This document shows positions 7,245 to 14,298 of a DNA stretch of 64,000 bases, in pieces (position 1 is the first letter of the stretch; each line of letters starts with the position of its first letter). Made by a program: the position numbers and the translations under genes. The notes under the pieces are model-generated. The model saw only the letters and a list, made by a program, of their open reading frames with translations, was not told the origin of the DNA and made no database searches. This DNA is from Cloacibacillus evryensis DSM 19522 (lineage in GTDB: Bacteria > Synergistota > Synergistia > Synergistales > Synergistaceae), in the NCBI RefSeq assembly GCF_000585335.1, contig NZ_KK073872.1, forward strand, positions 1,665,283-1,729,282, given 5' to 3'.

Positions 7245-7907
7245 CTAGCCAAATTTGATGCCGCTGATGGAACCGGTGGCCTTGACGGCGTCCCACTGGC
7301 GTTTTACCTCCTGGATGTCGAGCCAGGTCAGGTGCTTGGGGCTGCCCTCCTTCGAGCTGGCGTTGCGCAGCAGGTAGCTCGGGTGGAACATCGGCATGAC
7401 TGCGGCCCCGCGCCACTCGAACCAGCGCCCGCGGAGCTTCGTTATGCCCTCGCTCGTCTGCAGTATCCAGCGCGCGGGCGTATTCCCCAGCAGCACGATC
7501 AGCGCCGGGTTTATCAGCATTATCTGTGTCTGCAGATGCTTGTCGCAGAGCACCGTCTCCGCCGGCGTCGGCACGCGGTTCTCCGGCGGCCTGCATTTTA
7601 CGATGTTGGTTATGTAGACCTCCCGGCGGCTGATCCCCGCCGCCGTCAGGATCTGAGTCAGGAGCTGCCCCGCCCTGCCGACGAAGGGGATCCCTTGTGT
7701 GTCTTCGTCTGCTCCCGGCCCTTCGCCGATGAACATCAGCCTGCTGTCCGGGTCGCCGTCGCCGAAGACGACCTTCGTCCGCGTTTCCGCGAGGGGGCAG
7801 GCGCGGCAGGCAAGCACGTTTGCCTTCGTCTCTTCCCAGAGCGTCTTCTTCATCGCCGCCCTCTCCTCGTCGTTCAGTTTAAGCAATATATCTTCGTTTT
7901 CCGTCAT
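7245..7907 (-). CDS. Uracil-DNA glycosylase, family 4 (4Fe-4S)
   Basis: Removes uracil from DNA in base-excision repair. Family-4 hallmarks are visible: Cys34 and Cys37 of CRACPL, the GEGPGADED water-activating motif at about 61-69, the conserved NIVKCRPPENR segment, and HPSYLLR near the C-terminus. A fourth cysteine after the KCRPP segment would complete the cluster. Length 220 residues is typical. Its ATG overlaps the stop of the upstream P-loop/Asp23 gene (ATGA), so the two are translationally coupled. Confidence 0.93.
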   Translation of the reverse strand: MTENEDILLKLNDEERAAMKKTLWEETKANVLACRACPLAETRTKVVFGDGDPDSRLMFIGEGPGADEDTQGIPFVGRAGQLLTQILTAAGISRREVYITNIVKCRPPENRVPTPAETVLCDKHLQTQIMLINPALIVLLGNTPARWILQTSEGITKLRGRWFEWRGAAVMPMFHPSYLLRNASSKEGSPKHLTWLDIQEVKRQWDAVKATGSISGIKFG

Positions 7908-8743
7908 ATCTGGACCTCCGCGATTATTACGTCTACAGTTTTTACATCGAGCCCGGTGAAATAACGCAGGCTTACCGCTATGCGCTCTTTTACCAGGTTC
8001 GCGATGCTGAGGAATTTTTTGTCCCCGAGCGTCACGGTGAGTTTCATTTCGATACGGAGGGATTCCTCCTCTTCGGGGCTCACCTTGACCTCGTTGACTT
8101 TGGCCACCTGCGTCGTGCGGCTGGCAATGAAAGAGGCAAGTTCCTCGATCGCCTCCGTTTCGATATGAACGTTGCCGTAGAAACTAAAGGGGGGACGCAC
8201 GATCGTCTTTTCCCCCTCGTGCTTGTCTTTGGATTTCCAGAATACGCGCAGCTGGCCGACTAGCTTGCCCGCGAAGTTTTTGCGCACCAGCACATGGGAG
8301 ACCGGTATTACGTGCTGCCCCTTGCTGAAACGTTCGCGGCGCGCCTTCACTATCTCCTCCGGCGTGGCGACGTCTTCTATATGTACTATCTGCTCCGGCG
8401 CCGGCAGGTTCAGCTTGCGCAGTATCCGCATCGCCATGTTGTCGGAGGTGGCGATGACCATTACAGAGCAGGGAGCGGCCGAGCGGAAGTAGTCGATGAC
8501 CTCTTTGCGGTGTTCGTCAAACTCGAAGATGGCGCGCCTGATGGCGCTGACCTGGTTCCTCTCCGCCTTGGCGCTTTTTCCGCAGACAATGCTGCCCTTG
8601 TGGATGACGAGCCCGTCGTCTATGATGTAATCGGCGTCGACCAGAGAGGCGACGAGCTGCGCCCTTTGGCTTTTGCCGGTGCCCGCCGCGCCCACAAAGG
8701 CGGACGTCTTTACATTCTCTATCAGCTGTCTGTCTTCGGCCAT
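7904..8743 (-). CDS. P-loop NTPase domain fused to an Asp23/Gls24-like domain
   Basis: The 279-residue protein opens with a clear Walker A motif, GAAGTGKS (residues 18-25), and a domain of about 150 residues that resembles a small nucleotide-binding or sensing ATPase. From about residue 170 the pattern of short beta strands plus the closing VNEVKV...V..VDVIIAEVQI segment resembles the Asp23/Gls24 (DUF322) alkaline-shock family, which in Firmicutes is a small envelope-associated protein. The start has a strong AAGGAGG site. It overlaps the uracil-DNA glycosylase gene by 4 bp and follows murA by about 20 bp. I do not know a described function; the Asp23 assignment is moderately sure, the P-loop is certain. 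Confidence 0.75.
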   Translation of the reverse strand: MAEDRQLIENVKTSAFVGAAGTGKSQRAQLVASLVDADYIIDDGLVIHKGSIVCGKSAKAERNQVSAIRRAIFEFDEHRKEVIDYFRSAAPCSVMVIATSDNMAMRILRKLNLPAPEQIVHIEDVATPEEIVKARRERFSKGQHVIPVSHVLVRKNFAGKLVGQLRVFWKSKDKHEGEKTIVRPPFSFYGNVHIETEAIEELASFIASRTTQVAKVNEVKVSPEEEESLRIEMKLTVTLGDKKFLSIANLVKERIAVSLRYFTGLDVKTVDVIIAEVQI

Positions 8744-8766
8744 CCGGCGCCCTCCTTCGTTCTCTT

Positions 8767-10047
8767 CTATTCCGTAAATTCTATCTCCGCGCCGAGAGCG
8801 CGCAGCTTCTCCACAAGCCCCTCGTAACCGCGCCAGACATGCTGGAGGTCGCAGATCGTCGTATCGTCCTCGGCGGCCAGCGCAAGCAGTATCAGCGCCG
8901 CTCCCGCGCGGAGGTTCGATGAGTGGACCTCCGCTCCGTTCAGCCTGCCGACGCCGGTGACGATCGCGATGTTGTCCTGCACCTCTATTTTTGCTCCCAT
9001 CTTTTTGAATTCGTTGATGTGGAGCAGGCGTGAGTCAAAGACGCTTTCATGGATGACGCTGGTACCGTTCGCGAGTGTGAGCACCGCCATAAGCTGTGGC
9101 TGCGTATCCGTCGGGAAGCCCGGGTAGGGCATGGTCTTTATCGTCACGCCTTTGAGCGGGGCTACCCACTTGGCCGTGATCTCGCTGCCAAAGACGTCGA
9201 TCTCGACGCCGGCCTCCCGCAGCTTGTTGAGTATCGCCTCCATATAATTGGGCGAGATCCCCCGTACCGTGACGCTGCCGTTCGTGATCACGCCGGCCAT
9301 CAGGTATGTCGCCGCCTCGATGCGGTCCGGGATTATCTCGCCGCTCGCCGAATGGAGCGAGCCTGCGCCGGTGACGCGGATCGTCTCGGTCCCGTCGCCC
9401 TTCACCGGGGCTCCCATGAGGCGCAGTATCTCCGCGAGGTTGACTATCTCGGGCTCTTTCGCGGCGTTTTCGATGAAGGTGGTGCCCTCCGCGAGCGCCG
9501 CCGCCATCATCAGGTTTTCCGTGGCGCCCACCGAAGGGAATTCCAGGGAGATCGTCGCCCCGCTAAGTTTGCCGGCGGTCGCCGTTACCGCGCCGCCTTT
9601 AAGTTCTATCTCGGCTCCCATTTTGGCAAGTCCCTTAAGGTGAAAATCAAGGGGCCTGCTGCCAAGCACGCAGCCTCCCGGCAGCGGCAGCAGCGCCCGT
9701 CCGCATCTGGCGACGAGAGGCCCGAGCACGAGCGAAGAGGCGCGCATTTTGCGCACCAGCTCGACGGGGGTCTCGCAATTGAGCTCATGAGGCACATCGA
9801 TCGTCATGCAGTGGTTATCGAAGGTCACCGCGGCCCCAAGGTGCCTGAGCAGGTCGCACATCGTGTGGATGTCGTATAGATCGGGGACTCCTTCCAGTTT
9901 CAGCGTCTGGCCTTTTAAAAGGATCGAAGCCGCCATCACAGGCAGAGCGGCGTTCTTGGCTCCCTGGACAGATATAGTCCCGCTGAGCCTTCTTCCGCCG
10001 CGTATGATCATTTTTTCTGCCAATTTTTTCAAACCATTAGTTTCCAT
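8767..10047 (-). CDS. murA: UDP-N-acetylglucosamine 1-carboxyvinyltransferase
   Basis: MurA transfers enolpyruvyl from PEP to UDP-GlcNAc, the first committed step of peptidoglycan synthesis. The substrate Lys-Asn pair is in GAKNAALP (31-32) and the PEP-binding, fosfomycin-reactive cysteine is Cys126 in PGGCVLGSRP. The 426-residue length includes an N-terminal extension of about 12 residues relative to the usual start; an internal ATG at 10011 is the alternative. The wecB stop and murA start touch (TAAATG), which couples their translation. Confidence 0.96.
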   Translation of the reverse strand: METNGLKKLAEKMIIRGGRRLSGTISVQGAKNAALPVMAASILLKGQTLKLEGVPDLYDIHTMCDLLRHLGAAVTFDNHCMTIDVPHELNCETPVELVRKMRASSLVLGPLVARCGRALLPLPGGCVLGSRPLDFHLKGLAKMGAEIELKGGAVTATAGKLSGATISLEFPSVGATENLMMAAALAEGTTFIENAAKEPEIVNLAEILRLMGAPVKGDGTETIRVTGAGSLHSASGEIIPDRIEAATYLMAGVITNGSVTVRGISPNYMEAILNKLREAGVEIDVFGSEITAKWVAPLKGVTIKTMPYPGFPTDTQPQLMAVLTLANGTSVIHESVFDSRLLHINEFKKMGAKIEVQDNIAIVTGVGRLNGAEVHSSNLRAGAALILLALAAEDDTTICDLQHVWRGYEGLVEKLRALGAEIEFTE

Positions 10048-12151: not shown

Positions 12152-13252
12152 TTATTTTGTGCCGAAGAGCCTGTCGCCCGCGTCTCCAAGTCCGGGCACG
12201 ATGTACCCGTGGTCGTTGAGGTGGCTGTCGACCGCCGCCGTATAGATATCGACGTCGGGGTGGGCCTCATGGAAGGCGGCGATGCCCTCGGGAGCCGCGA
12301 GCAGCGAGACCAGCGAGACCTTTTTGCCGCCTCTGTCCTTGATATGGCTGACGGCCGCCGCCGCCGAGCCGCCGGTGGCGAGCATCGGGTCCACGACGAA
12401 TATCTCGCGTTCCGAAATGTCACAGGGCAGCTTGCAGTAATAGTCGACGGGCTTGAGAGTCTCGGGGTCGCGGTAGAGGCCGATGTGCCCCACCTTGGCG
12501 TTGGGGACGAGCTTGAGTATGCCCTCTACCATGCCGAGCCCCGCGCGCAGTACCGGCACGATCGCGAGTTTTTTGCCCGAGAGGGTGAATACGCGCGTCT
12601 TCGCGACGGGGGTCTCTATCTCAGTCTCTTCGAGCGGCAGGTGGCGCGTGATCTCATAAACCATGAGCCCGGCGACCTCCTGTACAAGGTCGCGGAAATC
12701 TTTTGATGAAGTCTCTTTATTGCGCATGAGTCCCAGCTTATGGCGCACGAGCGGGTGGTCGATTACCACGGTCCTCCCGCCGCCCGCCGCGGCCTCGCGT
12801 GAGTTTGAGTTCTCGTTTTCGTAAGCGCTGATCTTTTCGAGCCGGAAGCAGTGCCGTCCGCCCTCGAACGGTTCGGCGAGCCAGGCTTTGACCATATCTT
12901 CGGCGACGTCGGCCCCGAGCACGCGCGCGCCGAGGACAAGGACGTTGGCGTCGTTGTGGCGGCGGCTCATGACCGCCGTGAAATGGTCGTGGCATAGCGC
13001 GGCGCGCACGCCCCTGACCTTGTTGGCGACGATGCTCATGCCGATGCCTGTCCCGCATACCAGTATCCCGCGTTCGGCTTTATGGCTCGCCACCGCGTCG
13101 GCGGCCTTGAATCCCCAGTCCGGGTAATCGACCCGCACGTCGCCGGAGGCCGTGCCGCAGTCCAGCACCTCGTGCCCCGCCTCCGTAAGCCTGTTCTTTA
13201 TCTCTTCTTTGAGCTTGTATCCCGCATGGTCCGAAGCTAGCGCTATCTTCAT
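12152..13252 (-). CDS. RpiB-Upp fusion: ribose-5-phosphate isomerase B and uracil phosphoribosyltransferase
   Basis: One 366-residue open frame holds two complete enzymes. Residues 1 to about 142 are RpiB: SDHAG at 7-11, catalytic Cys66 in [14 protein letters not shown] and [16 protein letters not shown] Ser/Asn/Gly-rich linker spans roughly 143-162. Residues about 163-366 are Upp: [16 protein letters not shown], the PRPP loop [10 protein letters not shown] (288-297), and the uracil-binding [12 protein letters not shown] end. The ATG follows GAGGAAT. The domains meet around ribose 5-phosphate metabolism: RpiB supplies ribose 5-phosphate, the precursor of PRPP, which Upp consumes. No stop or frameshift separates the parts, so it is a real fusion unless the assembly is wrong. 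Confidence 0.93.
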
Positions 13253-13280: not shown

Positions 13281-14216
13281 TTATTTTACAACCTTATGCA
13301 TTATCTCGCCGGCCAGAGTGTACGGATTGGCCCTTCTTGACGAAAGGTCTTCCATCACTTCGTCGCTCTTCCGCTCTTTCCATGCGTTCTCGACGAGCTG
13401 CGATATCTCGCCCCTCAATATCGCCTCGACCTCCATTTCAAGCTGCGACCAACGGCGGCGTTTGCCCTCCTCGCTGCTGCGGAGGTAGTCGCCGTGCCTT
13501 TTTATTATCTCCCGGACTTCGTCTACTCCGGTGTTTTTGTTGGAAGAGACGAGCGCCACCGGCGGTATCCATTCGCGTTCGCCGATCATCTTGAGCATCA
13601 CCTGAACGTCGGCGGCCACCTTGTCGGCCCCCTCCTTGTCGGCTTTGTTGACGACGAACACGTCGGCGATCTCCATGATGCCGGCTTTCATGATCTGAAC
13701 GTCGTCGCCCATGCCGGGGGTGAGGATGAGGCACACGGTGTCGGCGATCTTCACGATATCGACCTCCGACTGCCCGACGCCGACGGTCTCGATTATCACG
13801 ACGTCAAAGCCGCAGGCGTCGAGTATCAGAGCGCCTTCGTGCGTCCCGCGGCTGACGCCGCCAAGGTTGCCGCGCGAGCCCATACTGCGGATGAAGACGC
13901 CCTCTTCAATGGCGTGGTCCTGCATACGCAGGCGGTCTCCCAAAATCGCGCCGCCGGTGAAGGGGCTCGACGGGTCTATGGCGATCACGCCGACCTGCTT
14001 TCCTTCCGCTCTGAACTGCGCAATCAGACGGTTCACGAAGGTACTCTTACCTGCTCCCGGACTGCCCGTTATGCCAATCACCTGCGCCCCGCCGGTTTTA
14101 GGATATACGGTCTTCATTATCTCCTTCGAGGCGGGGGAATCCGCTTCGACAAGGCTGATAAGGCGTCCTATGGATCTCGTGTCTCCGGCTAACGCGCGTT
14201 CAAGTAGCTTATTCAT
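13281..14216 (-). CDS. meaB: Methylmalonyl-CoA mutase-associated GTPase MeaB (ArgK family)
   Basis: A G3E-family GTPase that protects and reactivates adenosylcobalamin-dependent mutases. Walker A is GSPGAGKST at about residues 51-59, followed by IAIDPSSPFTGGAILGDR, an ETVGVGQSEVD switch region and NKADKEGAD for guanine recognition. I prefer the ATG at 14216 (GGGAGAG upstream) over the GTG six bases earlier. No mutase gene is in the window. Length of about 311 residues is normal. Confidence 0.92.
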   Translation of the reverse strand: MNKLLERALAGDTRSIGRLISLVEADSPASKEIMKTVYPKTGGAQVIGITGSPGAGKSTFVNRLIAQFRAEGKQVGVIAIDPSSPFTGGAILGDRLRMQDHAIEEGVFIRSMGSRGNLGGVSRGTHEGALILDACGFDVVIIETVGVGQSEVDIVKIADTVCLILTPGMGDDVQIMKAGIMEIADVFVVNKADKEGADKVAADVQVMLKMIGEREWIPPVALVSSNKNTGVDEVREIIKRHGDYLRSSEEGKRRRWSQLEMEVEAILRGEISQLVENAWKERKSDEVMEDLSSRRANPYTLAGEIMHKVVK

Positions 14217-14298
14217 GGTCACAACTCTCCCTGTGTTTATTTTAAAAACGACGCAAGCGGGCGGAACATAATATATTTTTCTGCCGCGCTTGGTATGT

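Follow-up and report, generated by a model that had tools for sequence, protein, structure and literature searches.

The window analysed in this study, a stretch of 64,000 nucleotides from Cloacibacillus evryensis DSM 19522, carries a gene, hereafter Q, which the original prediction, made from the letters alone, took to encode a P-loop NTPase fused to an Asp23-like envelope-stress domain. The question raised by this locus is whether the fusion is real and, if so, which cellular process it serves. The description of the locus was correct: Q lies 23 bp behind murA, and its stop codon overlaps the start of a uracil-DNA glycosylase (UDG) gene by 4 bp (ATGA), to which the strand (minus) has to be added (Table 1).

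Table 1. Features of the Q locus in the window, and gene orders that bring Q near mmd or mcm genes
Feature or gene order	Position in window	Strand	Evidence	Locus or lineage
Q (P-loop NTPase-Asp23 fusion), whole gene, 279 aa	7904..8743	-	ORF (ATG at 8743, stop at 7904-7906) and orthologues	
P-loop domain, residues ~10-146	8306..8716	-	AlphaFold2 confidence mostly ~90 or above; conserved residues	
Walker A GAAGTGKS, residues 18-25	8669..8692	-	family alignment	
Conserved linker, residues 147-189 (P147, F157, G159, RPPFSFY 183-189)	8177..8305	-	relative entropy	
Asp23 domain, residues ~190-279, α-β-β-α-β	7907..8176	-	PF03780, profile-profile comparison, model	
Shine-Dalgarno-like AAGGAGG, 7 bp 5′ of the Q ATG	8751..8757	-	sequence	
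Family-4 uracil-DNA glycosylase (UDG)	7245..7907	-	TIGR00758 E=8e-60	
Gene directly upstream of Q, presumably murA (family knowledge and context)	8767..10047	-	EPSP_synthase PF00275 E=6.6e-102	
meaB (methylmalonyl-CoA mutase-associated GTPase)	13281..14222	-	PF03308 E=4.7e-93	
Q-mmdA-OAD_gamma-biotin carrier-OAD_beta				Bacillota L202, L240
mmdA-carrier-kinase-Q				L250
Q facing oadA-like-carrier-mmdA-mcm operon				L212
mcm near Q, on the opposite strand				L252, L260
prfB-Q-mmdA-biotin carrier				one Atribacterota clade; 4-bp overlaps in L277, L282
Q-mcm-B12-meaB-epimerase-mmdA				another Atribacterota clade
mcm-meaB-mmdA-biotin carrier-OAD_beta-rpiB/upp-wecA-wecB-murA-Q-UDG-uppS		one strand		Synergistota families f5, f6, f7, f11; some members missing in some loci

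Architecture and distribution of Q

The Walker A motif noticed at first is kept across phyla: each of G18, G21, T22, G23, K24 and S25 is present in 85 of the 86 aligned family members, and the pattern that defines the P-loop NTPase superfamily, GxxxxGK[ST] at the β1-α1 junction, is found in 85/86 members, the AlphaFold2 model showing strand 11-17, a loop and helix 24-34. Since the surroundings of the motif are kept as well, it is not a chance motif. The N-terminal domain of about 150 residues that had been predicted around it is borne out by conservation and by AlphaFold2, which gave two confident domains for Q, 11-141 and 196-278. Besides Walker A, the residues D42-D43-G44, S57-A58-K59, T99-S100-x-x-M103 and R138 are conserved, and the modelled chain passes from β1, the P-loop and α1 through a strand ending at the invariant D42-D43, a β-hairpin, G55 and S57-A58-K59 to helices, a strand (92-98) ending at T99-S100 and further α/β elements.

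This fold is like that of small P-loop kinases, a catalytic role is conceivable for the conserved DDG, SAK and TS motifs, and the pattern around D-D-G and S-A-K is MiaA-like. Q might accordingly act as a stand-alone kinase or transferase whose substrate is a small molecule or RNA, the Asp23 domain being no more than an oligomerisation module, but we regard this as quite improbable. Cytidylate kinase and MiaA share with Q the Walker A motif and the first β-α unit; once Walker A was removed, MiaA and cytidylate kinase scored 16.3 and 14.9, within the shuffle null (maxima 17.8 and 21.0), and the kinship was rejected because all the signal had come from Walker A. No Pfam or NCBIfam kinase family was matched at its cut-off, and beyond Walker A the domain matched none of the families tested by Pfam, NCBIfam, PDB sequence searches and profile comparisons, the PDB sequence searches returning generic Walker A matches only. 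The top Foldseek match, the Era GTPase (E~1e-5 to 1e-6), which carries a P-loop plus a KH domain in an analogous two-domain layout, was judged to be spurious on a TM-score of 0.2, an rmsd of ~21 Å and a different domain packing; the Era/TRAFAC motifs DxxG (G3) and NKxD (G4) are absent among the conserved columns of Q. PADLOC matched Q to GajA, a resemblance of the kind that P-loops give in general. As for MiaA (PF01715) itself, 29 of the 31 genomes searched have it and two Atribacterota genomes (G192 and G193) gave no match, for which incompleteness is a possible reason.

Mean relative entropy is 2.66 bits in the linker, about the same as in the P-loop domain (2.53) and much higher than in the Asp23 domain (1.59). 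The linker was left unplaced by AlphaFold2 (about 147-190, confidence <50), and was still disordered in a second run with rows from Clostridia, Negativicutes and Atribacterota. That it is conserved yet unplaced suggests that it may fold on a partner.

The C-terminal ~90 residues are homologous to the Asp23/Gls24 family (PF03780, DUF322; YqhY, YloU and S. aureus Asp23), in agreement with the original prediction. The Pfam match covers residues 202-277 with E=2.1e-6 and, at 28.6 bits, just passes the cut-off of 28; PF03780 matches were found in 39/39 Q orthologues at E<=1 (best E=8e-11), some of them scoring below the cut-off. When the C-terminal columns were compared with stand-alone Asp23 proteins, the profile-profile score was 72.8 over 92 aligned columns, against 11.7±2.2 (maximum 17.6) after column shuffling; this comparison carries the homology back to about residue 187, and the full Q-family profile also detects stand-alone Asp23 genes, mostly at profile positions ~186-276. 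To this family Q adds the P-loop domain and the conserved linker, and it is devoid of the ~15-residue loop PASPGLMANLRLGRKT of the stand-alone Asp23 members of Synergistota, which are also present in most Synergistota genomes checked. That Asp23 proteins usually stand alone and that such a fusion is rare was a fair point, and the P-loop-Asp23 fusion is real.

The phylogenetic spread, checked as had been proposed, covers three phyla. Among Synergistota, 177 of 188 genomes carry Q, nearly always in single copy, and so do all those of good quality (116/116). Q was also detected in 42/50 Atribacterota genomes (one Q being split) and in ~175/398 Bacillota genomes, many of them Clostridia, the last number being counted by eye at E<1e-60, with a clear gap between Q and the next matches at ~1e-11. 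The N-terminal domain was not seen apart from Asp23 in the sampled genomes, the matches listed for Q-less genomes being to the Asp23 region only, and neither Pfam nor NCBIfam holds a family spanning the whole of Q. Q thus represents one conserved full-length two-domain family, unnamed in the libraries searched, and not a known single family.

Neighbourhoods outside the decarboxylase link

The sensing of nucleotide or envelope state had been proposed from the position of Q between murA and the glycosylase gene. The order murA-Q-UDG-uppS is indeed nearly universal in Synergistota loci, and in S. aureus the stand-alone Asp23 associates with the membrane via AmaP, forms filaments and is linked to envelope homeostasis (PMC6954212). 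This order is, however, specific to Synergistota, which leaves the proposal weak, and these neighbours are part of a long housekeeping array; in other lineages Q is found in orders such as rny-ymdB-PHP-Q or next to nfnAB-like genes, and because its neighbours differ by lineage the murA/UDG context says little on the function of Q. The glycosylase is moreover an enzyme of DNA repair that is not known to act in the envelope, and an envelope or nucleotide-state sensor coupled to both peptidoglycan precursor synthesis (murA) and DNA repair (UDG) is in our judgement very unlikely.

A regulator of membrane lipid or isoprenoid synthesis, acting on phospholipid or fatty-acid synthesis, could be suspected from the genes uppS-cdsA-dxr-rseP-ispG downstream in the window, and from one Clostridia clade with the order Q-cmk-plsC (median gap 12.5 bp). 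Such an activity has been reported for B. subtilis YqhY, a stand-alone Asp23 protein encoded with the accBC operon, which is reported to control acetyl-CoA carboxylase (ACCase) and whose deletion selects suppressors in ACCase subunits (PMC5437119). The lipid genes are nevertheless essential in nearly all bacteria, so that the distribution of Q cannot follow theirs, and the plsC link is restricted to the one clade, making this role rather unlikely for Q. In some Clostridia (L077, L085, L099 and L131) the gene behind Q encodes ~430 aa with an N-terminal cytidylate kinase, apparently fused to a plsC-like acyltransferase; relatives carry cmk and plsC as separate genes.

Linkage and co-occurrence with mmdA

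The association that recurs across phyla, and a better lead than murA and the glycosylase, is that with the biotin-dependent methylmalonyl-CoA decarboxylase. In the 80 Bacillota and Atribacterota neighbourhoods of Q that were fetched, unrelated arrangements repeatedly include a carboxyltransferase of the MmdA type, whose best NCBIfam match (TIGR01117) stays under the strict cut-off of that family, together with other genes of its operon; overall, about seven arrangements place Q beside mmd/mcm genes (Table 1). The subunits OAD_beta, which is the Na+-pump subunit, and OAD_gamma were assigned by Pfam. An mmdA gene lies <=7 kb from Q in 7/60 Q-positive Bacillota genomes, in 4 arrangements, against 0.5 expected; with only independent Bacillota arrangements counted P is ~0.002, for a linkage picked out post hoc from many neighbour families, the 7-kb distance and the family being chosen afterwards. 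The majority of Q genes are not adjacent to mmd genes. When all neighbour families were ranked by parsimony, mmdA came out near the top outside one Clostridia clade, together with an abundant ABC ATPase; within that clade, flicker of gain and loss confounds the ranking.

In Synergistota, coordinate comparison placed the mcm/mmd operon upstream of Q, and on its strand, in 16/61 genomes, at a distance of 5-8 kb in families f5, f6, f7 and f11. This array is probably ancestral, because f11 comes from a different taxonomic order of the phylum. In the genome of the window the mcm-mmd operon is located elsewhere (L373), ~0.75 Mb from Q; of these genes the window retains meaB only, which adjoins an oxidoreductase gene. 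Since meaB is retained in the arrays of L366-L369, L371 and L375, the window meaB has likely stayed behind from the ancestral mcm-meaB-mmd array (compare L366-L369 and L371). MeaB/ArgK GTPase (PF03308) resembles Q in having a P-loop and in being encoded close to genes of the methylmalonyl-CoA pathway, but Q gave no MeaB match and MeaB is a separate gene within the same arrays.

Two further observations concern this region and this genome. A gene at 12152-13252 (-) of the window encodes a fusion of RpiB (ribose-5-phosphate isomerase B) with uracil phosphoribosyltransferase (PF02502 + PF14681), matches to which adjoin wecA in the Synergistota arrays examined. The genome also carries a second, more divergent MmdA homologue (L374, G000:C1:2200945-2202474), with 51% identity to the query, near which pump or carrier subunits were not detected.

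As the hypothesis was drawn from linkage before co-occurrence was tested, the latter provides a semi-independent check. The mmdA gene is present in 59/60 Q-positive versus 12/60 Q-negative Bacillota genomes (Fisher p=1e-20 without phylogeny), i.e., also in ~20% of the Q-negative group, and in 59/61 Synergistota genomes. On an rpoB tree of 80 genomes, in a test resting on 9 independent pairs differing in Q, mmdA followed Q in ~6.8 of the 9 and ran counter to it in ~0 (median p=0.016), indicating that Q presence tracks mmdA across the phylogeny. The mcm gene was a weaker correlate (31/40 versus 9/40, median p=0.0625), and 9 Q-positive genomes have mmdA without mcm.

Both Q and mmdA mark fermentative anaerobes, and their tie might then reflect a shared lifestyle only (anaerobic amino-acid or succinate fermentation), Q itself serving an unrelated housekeeping function. 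The universal presence of Q in good Synergistota genomes and the large number of Q genes unlinked to mmd fit such a view, but the repeated physical linkage and the better correlation with mmdA than with mcm do not, and we hold it to be unlikely.

Possible role of Q and its meaning

The architecture, homology, conservation, mmdA co-occurrence and genomic linkage of Q are established. We tentatively propose, as the most likely reading although somewhat less than evenly probable, that Q assists, as an accessory factor, or regulates biotin-dependent acyl-CoA (de)carboxylases whose carboxyltransferase is of the MmdA type, foremost the Na+-pumping methylmalonyl-CoA decarboxylase. The genomic tie of mmd with Q parallels that of accBC with yqhY, in that an Asp23 protein goes with a biotin-dependent carboxylase. 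By analogy with YqhY-ACCase and with S. aureus Asp23, the Asp23 domain and the linker would make contact at the membrane with either the decarboxylase or its carrier. Through putative nucleotide binding, the P-loop domain would switch this interaction by its nucleotide state, which may serve assembly or gating by energy status in one direction or the other.

The P-loop and Asp23 domains are of known kinds; none of the libraries searched has a name for the family that joins them, and in the literature searched we found no paper on an Asp23-P-loop fusion or on Asp23 with methylmalonyl-CoA decarboxylase. A wider reading, which we consider doubtful, is that Q founds a family of nucleotide-switched regulators of Na+-pumping biotin decarboxylases, and that Asp23 is generally a control module for biotin-dependent acyl-CoA carboxylases, as in accBC-yqhY and mmd-Q. 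The Asp23 family is widespread and reported to be highly expressed, without a settled molecular function. A deeply conserved P-loop-Asp23 fusion whose link with a biotin-dependent decarboxylase spans three phyla offers a concrete hypothesis for it, which joins the YqhY-ACCase result, and Q is an unannotated core protein of every good-quality Synergistota genome.
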